Below, piece by piece: positions 13,153 through 18,144 of a stretch of DNA of 46,702 nt. Position 1 is the first letter of the stretch, and each line of letters begins with the position of its first letter. The notes under the pieces are model-generated. The model saw only the letters and a list, made by a program, of their open reading frames with translations. It made no database searches and was not told the DNA's origin. Origin of the DNA: Planctomycetota bacterium (lineage in GTDB: Bacteria > Planctomycetota > MHYJ01 > JACPRB01); assembly GCA_035574235.1 (NCBI GenBank), contig DATLZA010000051.1, forward strand, positions 1-46,702, given 5' to 3'. Made by a program: the position numbers and the translations under genes.

Positions 13153-14517
13153 TCACCTCCAGAAGGAAAGGGTCTTCCCGGCCTGGTAGACGCCCACCGC
13201 CGTCATGGCCAGGAAGGAGATCCACAGGAAAAGCGTCCACGTCCGGCCCGGGCGCAGCGCGGCCGGGATGAAGCGGTGACGGAAATACACCGCGGCCAGT
13301 CCGAGAAACGGCAGCATGATTCCCTGCGCCACGGCCCCCACGGTGACCAGGGAGACCGGGAGCCCCCCGCGCGCCTGCCCATAGAGGTAAAGGCCGAGGG
13401 CGATCAGCAGCACCGCCACGATCGCCCCGCGGATCGCCCGTCGCCTTCCGCGCTCGGCGTCCGGCGCGAGAAGTCCCAGGATCGCCAGGAGGTCCGCGAA
13501 AAGGCGGCCGTCGGAGGCCGTCGAGACGAAGAGGGTCGAATAAAGGACCATGAACGCCCCCGCCAGGAAGATCCACGGTCCCGCGCCTCCGAAGGCGCTT
13601 TCGTAGAGCCGCGAGAGCGTGGGGATCATCTGCTCGTCGGAGACGCGCAGGCCGTCCCGGTGGAGGACCGCCGCTCCGAGGAGGTAGAAGGCGGCGGTCG
13701 CCACGGTGTAGATCGCCATCGACGCCCACGCATCGACGGTCATGACCCGGATCCAGCCGCGCGCGCGGGCCTCCCAGGCGGGGGTTCCGTCGGGCGGCCC
13801 GGCGGCGCGGGCGTATCCCTTCTCGAGGAGCCAGATGGGGTAGAAGACGAGCTCCGCCGCTCCCACGCCCGTGATGGCGAACGCCCCGAAAGCGGTCAGG
13901 AAGTCGTCGCCGAACCGGAACGCGAATCCCGACGCCAGTTCCCCGGGCCGCACCGCCCAGCGCGTTCCCTGGATGAGCGCCAGCGCCAGGACGGTGGAAA
14001 GCGTGAAGCCGGCGACCATGAGGGTCGAAGCCCGCTCCACCAGACGGTAGCGTCCGAGAAGCAGGAGTCCCGCCACCGAGGCGGCGACGAGGAAGGCGCA
14101 CGCGCGGTGCGCCCAGGGGCGCCCGTCCGGGGCCATGAGGCTTCCGAGCGCCGTCAGCATGCCCGAGAGCTGGAAGAACGTGCCCAGGTACATGCCGAAC
14201 CAGAGCCAGACCGCCCACGAGACCCGCAGGCGCGGCCCCGGCAGATCGTTCAGGGCCTGGAGGCTCGAGCGGCCCGTCAGGATCGTGGTGCGTCCCCATT
14301 CGATCTGGACGAACACCTTGATGAAGCATCCGAGGAGGATGAACCAGAGGAGCGTGAAGCCCGCCTGGGCGCCCAGGCGCGTCGTCATGATGAGCTCGCC
14401 CGTGCCCACGATGTTGGCGGTGATGATGAGCCCGGGGCCGATCGAGCGGAGGATGGCCCCGAGCGTCCGGGGGGGATCGCGCGGCGCGCTCGTTTCCACG
14501 GACGCCCATGACACCAC
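13153..14517 (-). CDS. Nramp-family-like membrane transporter with non-canonical metal site
   Basis: A protein of about 454 residues with some 11-12 hydrophobic segments and the Nramp/APC fold. The first helix reads GPGLIITANIVGTGELIMTTRLGAQAGF (split here as GPGLIITANIVGTG then ELIMTTRLGAQ). Classical Nramp metal transporters have DPGN there, and that motif is missing. The sixth-helix MPH is also absent, with AITGVGAAELVFYPIW in the corresponding place. Similar Nramp relatives occur in planctomycetes and Bacteroidetes, and their substrate is unclear. The gene precedes L-fuconate dehydratase by 8 bases, so a sugar-acid related substrate is possible but unproven. The start is GTG 14517, or GTG 14499 if the weak TTGTGC/TGTCAT promoter is real. 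Confidence 0.75.
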   Translation of the reverse strand: MVSWASVETSAPRDPPRTLGAILRSIGPGLIITANIVGTGELIMTTRLGAQAGFTLLWFILLGCFIKVFVQIEWGRTTILTGRSSLQALNDLPGPRLRVSWAVWLWFGMYLGTFFQLSGMLTALGSLMAPDGRPWAHRACAFLVAASVAGLLLLGRYRLVERASTLMVAGFTLSTVLALALIQGTRWAVRPGELASGFAFRFGDDFLTAFGAFAITGVGAAELVFYPIWLLEKGYARAAGPPDGTPAWEARARGWIRVMTVDAWASMAIYTVATAAFYLLGAAVLHRDGLRVSDEQMIPTLSRLYESAFGGAGPWIFLAGAFMVLYSTLFVSTASDGRLFADLLAILGLLAPDAERGRRRAIRGAIVAVLLIALGLYLYGQARGGLPVSLVTVGAVAQGIMLPFLGLAAVYFRHRFIPAALRPGRTWTLFLWISFLAMTAVGVYQAGKTLSFWR

Positions 14518-14570: not shown

Positions 14571-14598
14571 TTGCGCCGAACGGAGGGCGGGGTATGAT
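14571..14598 (+). promoter_or_regulatory. Promoter of the cupredoxin-cyclase-porin operon (leaderless)
   Basis: TTGCGC (14571-14576), a 16-base spacer and TATGAT (14593-14598) precede the ATG at 14607 by 8 bases. There is no room for a Shine-Dalgarno leader, so the transcript probably starts at or next to the start codon. Confidence 0.65.
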
Positions 14599-14606
14599 GA
14601 TCGGTC

Positions 14607-15302
14607 ATGCGGTTCCTGCCGGTCGTGCTCTTTCTTCTTCCGTGGAAGGCGCCGCAGGAAGGCGTCACGATCTCGGGCAAGATCGAAGCCGTCGAAGGGG
14701 AGACCCAGAGGAAACTCCGCGCCGACGTGCGGTACGTCGGTCCCGGCATCGAGAAGCGCAAGGATCCCGATCCTTCTCCCGCGGTGGTGTACCTCCTCAA
14801 GGCTCCGGGACCCGCCCCGGCTCCCGTGACGGTGGACCTGCGTCAGGACGGGCTGGAGTTCCGGCCGCGCGTCCTGGCGGTACCCGCGGGGAGCACCGTC
14901 CGGTTTCCGAACGAGGACGATCTTTTCCACAACGTTTTTTCCTATTCGCGGGCCAAGCGGTTCGATCTCGGCCGCTACCCGCGGGGACAGAGCCGCGAGG
15001 TGGTGTTCGACCAGAAGGGGCTGGTCGAAGTCCGCTGCGACATCCACAAGCACATGCGCGCCTACGTGCACGTCTTCGACCATCCGCATTTCGCGGTGGT
15101 CCGCCCGGACGGCTCGTACGAGCTTCGCGGCGTGCCGCCGGGGGCGTACACGCTGGCGGTCTGGAAGGAATTCTTCGAGCCGGTGCGGCGGGAGATCCGG
15201 GTGGGCCCCGAGGGGGCGCGGGTGGACGTGACCCTGGCGGCCCGCGCGCGGTCCGGGGATGAGGCGGGCCCGGGAGCCTCCTGCGGCGGCGGGGCGCGAT
15301 GA
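14607..15302 (+). CDS. Periplasmic cupredoxin with C-terminal carboxypeptidase-regulatory-like domain
   Basis: A 231-residue exported protein with a short signal peptide (MRFLPVVLFLLPW). Residues about 75-160 form a plastocyanin-like cupredoxin. The type-1 copper ligands are H108 (LFHNVF), C144, H147 and M150 (CDIHKHM). Other family members usually have CDIHPWM, so the extra His149 is unusual. Residues about 160-215 (VRPDGSYELRGVPPGAYTLAVW) resemble the beta-sandwich carboxypeptidase-regulatory domain. Its stop overlaps the cyclase start (ATGA), so the two are made together. It may carry electrons or bind copper in the periplasm, and in this setting it could be the sensing partner of the cyclase. 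Confidence 0.85.
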   Translation: MRFLPVVLFLLPWKAPQEGVTISGKIEAVEGETQRKLRADVRYVGPGIEKRKDPDPSPAVVYLLKAPGPAPAPVTVDLRQDGLEFRPRVLAVPAGSTVRFPNEDDLFHNVFSYSRAKRFDLGRYPRGQSREVVFDQKGLVEVRCDIHKHMRAYVHVFDHPHFAVVRPDGSYELRGVPPGAYTLAVWKEFFEPVRREIRVGPEGARVDVTLAARARSGDEAGPGASCGGGAR

Positions 15303-16900
15303 GATTCCGGACGAAGATTTTTTTCTCCGTGCTCGCTCCGGCCGGTCTTCTCGTGAGCGCGGCGGCGGCCGCGGCCCTGGCGGCGCTCGCGCGCTCCTCG
15401 GAAGAGGCGGCCGGGCGCGCCCTCCGGCGCACGCGGAACGCGTTCGAGGGCGTCCTCCGGGAGCAGCTCGACCAGCTCAAGCGCCTGAGCGCCCCCTTCT
15501 CCGGAGCGCGGTTCGACGCGGCTCTCTCCGAAGCGGTCCTTTCCGGAGACCTCGACATCGTCCGCCAGCTCGTGGAGGACGATCTCGCGCTCCTTCAGTC
15601 GTCGGCCGCGGTGGACTTCCTGGAACTGCGTTCCCGCAAGGGAGACCTTCTTCTGCGCCGGTCGCTTCTCCCCGGGGCGGGGGAGGTCGGCGAGCTTCCC
15701 TTCCAGGCCTGGATCGCCCGCCGCGAGGAAGCGCTCACGGAGTTCCAGGGGGAACCCTTTCTGGCCGTGCGCATCGAACATGAGCGGGGGTATTTCGTAT
15801 TCGGCCGGCACTTCCGGCCGGCGCTCGACCGGCTGGTGGCCGATTTCGGCGTCCAGGTCGTTCTGTTCCGGGAAGGGCGCGCCGTCTACGCCTCCCTGGC
15901 GGGAGCGGTTTCCCCCGAGGTCGCGGAAGGGTCCCTCTGGGTGGGAGGACGGCGCTACCTGGCTTCCGCGGGGCGGCCGCCCTCTTCGGAGCTTGAGCCC
16001 ATGGTGCTGCTCTACTCCATGGAGGGGGTGGATCGGGAGAAGCGCGCCGTGATCCGGGCGGGAGCGGCCGGGCTGGCGGCGGCGCTGGCGCTCGCCGCGA
16101 TGATCGCCGCCCGGCTTTCGCGCCGCGTGTCGGGTCCCGTCGAGACGCTCGTCGAGGCCGCCCGCCGGGTGGGCGCGGGGGACTACGAGGTCCGGGTGGA
16201 CATCCGCGGCCGCGACGAGATGTCCCGCCTCGGCGGGGCTTTCAACGAAATGACCGAAGGGCTCCGCAAGCGGCGCGAAATCATGGACAAGACGCTTTCC
16301 CCCGACGTCGCCGAGGAGCTGATGCGGGATCTTTCCCCCGGCGGAGAGCGCCGCGAAGCCACGGTGCTTTTTCTCGACGTGCGCGGGTTCACGAGCGCGA
16401 CCGAGGGGGTCGATCCCGCCCGGGTGGTCGCCGTTCTCAACGACATGATGGATTTTTTGGCGGAGGCGGTGGCCCGGCACGGCGGGAACGTGAACAAGTT
16501 TCTGGGGGACGGTCTGATGGCCATGTTCGGAGCGCCGCGCGACCTTCCGGACCATCCGCGCCGGGCGGTGGAGGCGGCGCGCGAGATGATGCGCGGGATG
16601 CGCGCCTGGAACGCGCGGCGGGCGGAGTCGGGCGGGGCGCCGTTTCAGATCGGAATCGGCATCAACACGGGCGTCGTCCTCGGCGGCCGCGTCGGGTCGC
16701 GCCGACGGCTGGAGTACACGCTCATCGGGGAAGAGGTGAACCTGGCGTCCCGGGTCTGCGCGAAGGCCTCGCCCGGCCAGATCCTGGTCACCCGGGCGAC
16801 GTTCGAGCGCCTGGGAGGCGGCGTGCCCGCGCGGCCGCTGGAGCCCCTCGTGGTCAAGGGCCTGAGCTATCCGGTTCCCGTTTACGAGGTGGACGCGTGA
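15299..16900 (+). CDS. Membrane adenylate/guanylate cyclase with periplasmic sensor and HAMP
   Basis: A 533-residue class III nucleotide cyclase. A first membrane helix (about 8-31), a periplasmic sensor of about 220 residues (dCache/CHASE-like but not assignable), a second helix (about 252-272), HAMP (270-325) and a catalytic domain (350-530) are seen. Metal-binding Asp residues are D360 (LFLDVRGFTS) and D404 (KFLGDG). K400, N481 and R485 (VNLASR) occupy the base-binding and transition-state positions. The loop usually reading GDxVN is GEEVN, so base specificity is uncertain, although cAMP is likelier. The gene lies between a cupredoxin and a barrel protein with four-base overlaps on both sides, suggesting the sensor responds to something handled by them. 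Confidence 0.9.
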   Translation: MRFRTKIFFSVLAPAGLLVSAAAAAALAALARSSEEAAGRALRRTRNAFEGVLREQLDQLKRLSAPFSGARFDAALSEAVLSGDLDIVRQLVEDDLALLQSSAAVDFLELRSRKGDLLLRRSLLPGAGEVGELPFQAWIARREEALTEFQGEPFLAVRIEHERGYFVFGRHFRPALDRLVADFGVQVVLFREGRAVYASLAGAVSPEVAEGSLWVGGRRYLASAGRPPSSELEPMVLLYSMEGVDREKRAVIRAGAAGLAAALALAAMIAARLSRRVSGPVETLVEAARRVGAGDYEVRVDIRGRDEMSRLGGAFNEMTEGLRKRREIMDKTLSPDVAEELMRDLSPGGERREATVLFLDVRGFTSATEGVDPARVVAVLNDMMDFLAEAVARHGGNVNKFLGDGLMAMFGAPRDLPDHPRRAVEAAREMMRGMRAWNARRAESGGAPFQIGIGINTGVVLGGRVGSRRRLEYTLIGEEVNLASRVCAKASPGQILVTRATFERLGGGVPARPLEPLVVKGLSYPVPVYEVDA

Positions 16901-18144
16901 CGCTCTGGGTGATCGCCGTGCTTCTTCCGGGGGCGGTTCCGGCGCAGGACGAGGAGGACGAGCCGGCGGATCTCTTCGAATGGGCCCGGCGGCTGGAGGA
17001 GCTGGACCTCTCCTGGCGGTGGGGCGAATTCGCCTTCGAAGTCTCGGGCGAACTCGACCTGGAGGCGTACGTCTTCGGCGACGAATCTCCGGGGGCCACG
17101 GCGGAGGATCCCGCGGTCCGTTCGGGGGATTACCGGCGTTCGTCCCGGTCCGACAGTCCCGAGTTCGGAGGTCGCCTGCGGCTTTTCCTGGATGCGTCCT
17201 GGGGGGAGGCGCTCGAGGGGTCCGTGGAGCTGCGGGCCGACGGCACGACGGCGGCGGACGGCGAAGCCGGAGCCCGCTTCGAGCAGTACTGGCTGCGCGT
17301 CCGGGCGCTTTCCGGAGACGCGCCCGTTCGGGTGCAGGCCGGGAAATTCGCCGCTCCCGTCGGGAACTTCATTCCGCGCTCGTCGGCGCGCCGGAATCCG
17401 CTGGTGACCTGGCCGCTTCCGTACGACGCGCTGACCGCCTTGGCGAGCCTCGAGGATACCGTTCCGGTGGTCCTGGCCCGCCGGGACGTTCCGGATCGAA
17501 AGGACTGGTTCGTTCCGATCTGGCGCGAAGTCTACGGGACCGGCGTCGAGGGCGCGCTGGAGTGGGGCGACTGGAACGTGCGGGCGGCGCTTCTGAACTC
17601 GGCGCCCGCGACGCTTCCGGAGGACTGGGATCGGAAGGCGGGGGATCCCGGATTCTACAACGTCTACGGCCGGATCGTCTGGACGGCCCACGTGACGACG
17701 CGCCTGGGGGCGAGCGCCTCGCGGGGGGCCTACGCGAAGCGCGACGGGCGCGACGCGGAAGAGGAGCCGCAGACGCTCCTGGGCGTGGACGCCGAGTTTG
17801 CGCTGGGGCACCTGGAGATCTTCGCGGAGGCCTACTGGACCCGGTTCGAGGCGCCGCGGCTTCCGGATCTGGAGCTCTGGACGGCCTACGTGGAGGCGAA
17901 ATATACGTTCCTGCCGGGGCTCTTCGGGGCGGTGCGGCTGGCCCAGATCCGGTTCGACGAGATTCGGGACCCGTCGGGAGGGCGGGCGCACTGGGATCGG
18001 GGCGTGCGGCGGCTGGAGCTGGGAGGCGGGTACTTCTTCACGCCGAACTTCTTCGTCAAGACGACGCTCCAGCTCAACGATCACCAGGGAGGTCCCGAGC
18101 CGGACGATAACCTTCTGGCGCTCCAGGTGGGGCTGACCTTCTGA
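16897..18144 (+). CDS. Outer-membrane beta-barrel (porin-like) protein
   Basis: A 415-residue protein with a signal peptide (MTLWVIAVLLPGAVPA then QDEE). It is rich in alternating aromatic/hydrophobic strands such as FEQYWLRVRAL, VRVQAGKFAAPVG, LEIFAEAYWTRFEA and LELGGGYFFTPNFFVKTTLQL, and ends in Phe, the usual signal for barrel assembly. The KFAAPVGNFIPRSS segment resembles the loop region of phosphate-selective or general porins. It starts inside the cyclase stop (GTGA). The natural inference is that it admits or binds the ligand sensed by the trio. Exact family not recognised. Confidence 0.75.
   Translation: MTLWVIAVLLPGAVPAQDEEDEPADLFEWARRLEELDLSWRWGEFAFEVSGELDLEAYVFGDESPGATAEDPAVRSGDYRRSSRSDSPEFGGRLRLFLDASWGEALEGSVELRADGTTAADGEAGARFEQYWLRVRALSGDAPVRVQAGKFAAPVGNFIPRSSARRNPLVTWPLPYDALTALASLEDTVPVVLARRDVPDRKDWFVPIWREVYGTGVEGALEWGDWNVRAALLNSAPATLPEDWDRKAGDPGFYNVYGRIVWTAHVTTRLGASASRGAYAKRDGRDAEEEPQTLLGVDAEFALGHLEIFAEAYWTRFEAPRLPDLELWTAYVEAKYTFLPGLFGAVRLAQIRFDEIRDPSGGRAHWDRGVRRLELGGGYFFTPNFFVKTTLQLNDHQGGPEPDDNLLALQVGLTF

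Follow-up and report, generated by a model that had tools for sequence, protein, structure and literature searches.

YfiBNR of Pseudomonas aeruginosa is a diguanylate cyclase system in which an outer-membrane component, a soluble periplasmic regulator and an inner-membrane cyclase with a HAMP domain are encoded in one operon. In another described case, the soluble periplasmic protein LuxP binds the periplasmic domain of LuxQ, a kinase with a Cache-type sensor. Here we describe a three-gene locus in the window, that is, the whole stretch of 46,702 nucleotides analysed (contig DATLZA010000051.1 of the metagenome-assembled genome of an uncultured Planctomycetota bacterium; contig C51 of genome G000 in our sample). 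Its layout is like that of YfiBNR, but that system has a lipoprotein (YfiB) instead of a porin, its periplasmic regulator (YfiR) is not a copper protein, and its output is a GGDEF domain. In the window the cyclase is accompanied by a cupredoxin and a porin-like barrel, not by proteins of the YfiR and YfiB types, which sets the locus outside YfiBNR. We propose, with a probability of roughly 0.6, that the three genes act together as a single signalling unit that spans the envelope, in which the cupredoxin docks on a dCache sensor domain and the output of the cyclase is set. The sensing unit is apparently widespread and undescribed: in keeping with the sequence-only reading of this DNA, which knew of no described system of this kind, no cupredoxin-sensor-porin system was found in the literature searched, which excludes most subscription journals and preprints.

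Composition of the locus

The genes and their parts are as follows.

14607..15302, + strand: CUP, periplasmic cupredoxin with a C-terminal CarboxypepD_reg-like beta-sandwich (231 aa; Pfam)
14928, 15036, 15045 and 15054, + strand: codon starts of the predicted copper ligands H108, C144, H147 and M150 (sequence)
15299..15302, + strand: ATGA overlap of the cupredoxin and cyclase genes, 4 bp (sequence)
15299..16900, + strand: transmembrane dCache-HAMP-class III nucleotide cyclase (SIG; 533 aa; Pfam HAMP and Guanylate_cyc, two TM segments)
15374..16048, + strand: predicted periplasmic dCache-type sensor domain, aa 26-250 (AlphaFold2, Foldseek, module-sensor HMM)
16112..16267, + strand: HAMP domain, aa 272-323 (Pfam PF00672, 57.9 bits)
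16355..16858, + strand: class III cyclase catalytic domain, aa 353-520 (Pfam PF00211, 87.4 bits)
16897..16900, + strand: GTGA overlap of the cyclase and porin genes, 4 bp (sequence; 4-bp overlaps at the same junction in relatives)
16897..18144, + strand: POR, outer-membrane beta-barrel, predicted 16-stranded general-porin fold (415 aa; AlphaFold2, Foldseek)

The overlaps of four bases that the sequence-only reading had noted are therefore present at both junctions. The leaderless promoter that it placed ahead of the genes is not supported by the promoter scan, which found no sigma-70-like site upstream of the trio, despite a TATGAT at 14593-14598, 8 nt ahead of the cupredoxin ATG. Scanning the window for Rfam families and tRNAs gave no matches. 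An Nramp-family transporter-like gene (13153-14517, - strand) lies divergently, about 90 bp upstream of the trio.

The first gene, which had been taken for a copper-site protein, matches Pfam Copper-bind above its cut-off (22.8 against 21.2 bits), and its C-terminal part reaches 30.6 bits against CarboxypepD_reg, just below the cut-off of 32.3. Its predicted type-1 copper ligands form an H..C-x2-H-x2-M motif that is kept in 80/80 cupredoxin relatives, the Cys, the second His and the Met being absent from the search patterns that retrieved them. In known proteins, type-1 sites built from such ligands serve electron transfer. The window genome encodes five more cupredoxin paralogs on contigs C156, C79, C60 and C29, none of which adjoins a barrel or a cyclase.

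The second gene proved to be a membrane cyclase with a HAMP domain, as had been read from the letters, and its two TM helices span aa 7-25 and aa 251-269. The large periplasmic domain between them had been noted as well; it can now be assigned, since its AlphaFold2 model (pLDDT 88) is a two-lobed Cache fold, and the Foldseek matches include DctB, vpHK1S-Z8 and LuxQ (1zhh_B). On this model the sensor is a dCache domain. The window protein does not match Pfam dCache_3 up to an E value of 1, several proteins of other modules do, and an HMM built from module sensors other than that of the window recognises the window sensor at 32.5 bits (E 1.2e-8). It is divergent all the same, with 16-28% identity to other module sensors. 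A sensor search of viral contigs returned no relatives.

In the catalytic domain, the metal residues D360/D404, the substrate residues K400/T474 and the transition-state residues N481/R485 are all conserved, so the sequence gives no sign of an inactive cyclase. By the known substrate preferences of class III cyclases, the K400/T474 pair favours ATP, hence cAMP over cGMP, and the window protein is predicted to be an adenylyl cyclase with cAMP as its product. The window genome holds three cNMP_binding matches above the cut-off.

The third gene stays below the cut-off of Pfam Porin_O_P (17.2 against 20.9 bits). Its AlphaFold2 model (pLDDT 86) has 16 strands, Foldseek places it with OmpF-type porins (best E 3e-14), and the protein ends in ...LQVGLTF; judged by the model, the porin-like barrel of the sequence-only reading is a 16-stranded barrel of the general-porin fold. 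A plasmid search with the window porin gave no match.

The two modelled folds could also be read as a small-molecule receptor, in which a diffusible ligand is dealt with directly by the porin and the dCache domain, with no more than a modulating role left for the cupredoxin. Such a receptor would suit a barrel of the general-porin fold and dCache domains such as those of DctB and PctA, which bind small ligands, but it leaves a constant cupredoxin partner with invariant copper ligands unexplained, and the sensors, which diverge strongly from one another, show no evident conserved ligand motif. We regard it as improbable and prefer the unit in which the cupredoxin docks on the sensor.

Linkage of the three genes across phyla

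The same trio occurs in the Planctomycetota/Planctomycetales contigs JACQVX010000014, JACRIP010000182 and JAKEIC010000159. Among 392 sampled Planctomycetota genomes, eight had a strong barrel match and six the full trio in the same order (G000, G016, G023, G044, G297 and G359). In G006 the other two genes are not near the barrel; in G007 the cupredoxin adjoins the porin with no cyclase between, which indicates that the signalling gene is not always within the operon.

We then drew 80 loci from genome contigs by cupredoxin similarity alone, with five module members as the query. Same-strand neighbours up to 3 kb away include a barrel in 60/80 and a signalling protein in 67/80; because of the query, the figure of 60/80 describes this cupredoxin subfamily and not all cupredoxins. 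Some of the 20 loci without a recognised barrel lie at contig ends. Three gene orders are found across phyla (CUP-SIG-POR, CUP-POR-SIG and POR-CUP-SIG), and a 4-bp overlap at the SIG-POR junction is common in cyclase and kinase loci alike. Since the same order recurs across phyla, often with the same 4-bp overlap, the trio is not a chance arrangement, and the neighbourhood on which the sequence-only reading rested is indeed conserved. In three loci the cyclase and the barrel are fused in a single ORF, separated by a signal-peptide-like stretch (L111 5596-8628, L117 5542-8502 and L126 5499-8561); the barrel would there need to be cleaved off and exported.

The control loci lack this linkage. 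A barrel was present in 0/27 loci of paralogous cupredoxins, and their 1.5-kb flanks held no signalling output; at one of them (L058) a cyclase adjoins a second cupredoxin when the locus is read further (L066). None of the non-module cyclase loci had a barrel, and 22 weak barrel matches had no adjoining cupredoxin or cyclase. In L066 (G010), L067 (G014) and L068 (G009), a cupredoxin stands beside a longer HAMP cyclase without a barrel, and two of these three sensors give just a weak match to the module HMM.

Four contigs titled Klebsiella, Akkermansia or Proteobacteria (L171, L172, L143 and L157) carry cupredoxins and sensors that cluster with those of other Verrucomicrobia. They are probably mislabelled MAGs, including L171 with its 'Klebsiella pneumoniae' title, which calls for caution with claims about single taxa.

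These data bear on a further alternative, namely that functionally separate envelope genes share an operon and its regulation only. Overlaps of 4 bp are common in compact genomes, and G007 lacks a cyclase between cupredoxin and porin, both of which would fit. Against this stand the linkage across many phyla in three gene orders, the three fused cyclase-barrel ORFs, the control loci without linkage and the in-place output swaps described below, in which the cyclase-type sensor is kept. We consider this alternative very improbable beside a single signalling unit.

Exchange of the output domain

The outputs of the 67 loci comprise 26 cyclases, 33 HATPase kinases without another output, three Ser/Thr kinases, two LytS, two SpoIIE and one GGDEF protein; a HATPase protein is also near in one cyclase locus and one SpoIIE locus. 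L128 and L153, both encoding HisKA kinases, fall outside this tally. The outputs of representative loci were checked by Pfam. Histidine-kinase modules often include an NtrC regulator, and the GGDEF output among the 80 loci is GGDEF-HD. A Caballeronia (Burkholderiaceae) plasmid encodes, in a row, DUF3034, a truncated hemoglobin, a cupredoxin and a dCache_3-HAMP-GGDEF-EAL protein. Culturable carriers of the module include Paraliomyxa miuraensis and Caballeronia symbionts of insects. DUF3034 was considered as a barrel homologue and rejected, having no detectable relationship.

Cyclase-type and kinase-type periplasmic domains are homologous (hhalign probability 99.4%, E 4.8e-21). When the module-sensor HMM was run against 3545 proteins, all matches below 1e-7 were module proteins except one cyclase of G006, encoded by an ORF that reaches the edge of its contig. 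Mapped on the cupredoxin tree, the output label requires a minimum of 8 changes, whereas shuffled labels require 27.9 on average, which means that outputs are inherited, yet do change. Such changes are seen in Verrucomicrobial loci: the sensors of the kinases L128, L153 and L158 fall inside the Verrucomicrobial cyclase-type clade, and a single clade of all kinase sensors is rejected (p-AU 0.00015). Since these three kinases carry a cyclase-type sensor, the output has been exchanged in place; the CUP-SIG-POR order is retained in L128 and L158. Both trees were of the 'quick' kind, and the window and L107 sit on long branches in them.

The conserved parts are the cupredoxin, the dCache sensor and usually the porin, and the output domain is exchangeable. 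An inherently cyclic-nucleotide output is ruled out by the kinase, phosphatase and c-di-GMP outputs in relatives. The earlier proposal of cAMP or cGMP probably holds for the window, where the cyclase residues are intact, and does not extend to modules with other outputs.

Heme neighbours and the possible stimulus

Several modules adjoin c-type heme protein genes, encoding monoheme-barrel-like proteins (L137, L152 and L178), multiheme cytochromes (L141, L146 and L163) and small monoheme proteins (L109 and L175). Using the longest non-overlapping ORFs as stand-ins for genes, we counted 10 same-strand heme genes in modules or at most 1.5 kb from them, and 1 over a similar length further out, a difference that is suggestive rather than a formal test. 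In the window itself, the trio showed no adjoining heme gene. The genes at L137 3754-4941, L152 1188-2333 and L178 3574-4686 are a conserved gene just before the cupredoxin, with an N-terminal c-type heme motif followed by barrel-like sequence and no Pfam match. In the myxococcal SpoIIE-type modules L141 (3278-4795, 5555-6715) and L146, a multiheme cytochrome lies between cupredoxin and sensor; upstream in L141 is what may be another kind of barrel (weak SlpA_C match), and L146 has a counterpart 61% identical to it.

Because heme genes adjoin modules and the cupredoxin has a type-1 copper site, sensing of redox or electron-acceptor state is the likeliest stimulus, at a little under even odds. 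Copper supply ranks second, and we think it unlikely: the porin would admit copper, the cupredoxin would be a copper-loaded receptor, and the output would report copper availability or excess. All four type-1 ligands are invariant in the 80 relatives and the window has its Nramp-like metal-transporter gene divergently upstream, as a copper sensor might be expected to show; however, the role of such type-1 sites in known proteins is electron transfer, and in the few module flanks scanned no copper-handling gene was recognised next to modules, whereas heme proteins recur.

Proposed mechanism

A unit spanning outer membrane, periplasm and cytoplasm, as first suggested from the gene layout, is supported by these results and might work as follows. 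The porin would admit a small solute, metal or redox-active compound to the periplasm, or mark the point where an electron-transfer path reaches the outer membrane. In response to the stimulus, the type-1-copper cupredoxin would switch state, being oxidised or reduced, or copper-loaded or not, and would dock on the dCache domain that the transmembrane protein exposes to the periplasm. Cyclase activity would then be set through the dCache-HAMP unit, and the putative product cAMP may act via cNMP-binding proteins. Elsewhere among bacteria, this front end would drive kinases, a phosphatase or c-di-GMP enzymes. This scheme draws on the observed cross-phylum linkage, conservation of copper ligands and cyclase residues, sensor homology and output swapping, together with the modelled dCache and porin folds.

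More tentatively, and at somewhat less than an even chance, the modules could constitute an undescribed multi-phylum family of cupredoxin-coupled receptors, in which the state of periplasmic electron transfer is relayed by a blue-copper protein into cAMP, phosphorelay, Ser/Thr phosphorylation, phosphatase or c-di-GMP signals. If the unit works as proposed, many bacterial phyla would share one modular way to report envelope redox or copper state to the cell interior and would change the readout according to need. Cupredoxins that now go by 'methylamine utilization protein' or 'carboxypeptidase regulatory-like' would thereby gain a function, and there would be a clear way to approach what the dCache receptors of these modules sense.

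Comparison with known systems

LuxP-LuxQ resembles the proposed unit in having a soluble protein of the periplasm that acts on a sensor with a related fold, but LuxP is a sugar-binding-type protein and there is no porin; we know of no output swapping of the module's kind in that system. The window cupredoxin shares the H..C-x2-H-x2-M spacing with amicyanin among the amicyanin/plastocyanin-type cupredoxins, and 'methylamine utilization protein' is the annotation name of the module cupredoxin in Caballeronia. Unlike that type, the module cupredoxin is followed by a CarboxypepD_reg-like domain and, in the loci examined, sits beside sensors. The sensors of DctB, vpHK1S-Z8 and Pfam dCache_3 belong to the same fold class as the modelled window sensor, whereas the known ones (DctB, vpHK1S-Z8) work with partners other than cupredoxin and porin modules. 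Finally, class III adenylyl cyclases of the CyaB/CyaC type have the catalytic domain and its residues in common with the window cyclase, which differs from them in having a periplasmic front end linked to a cupredoxin and a porin.
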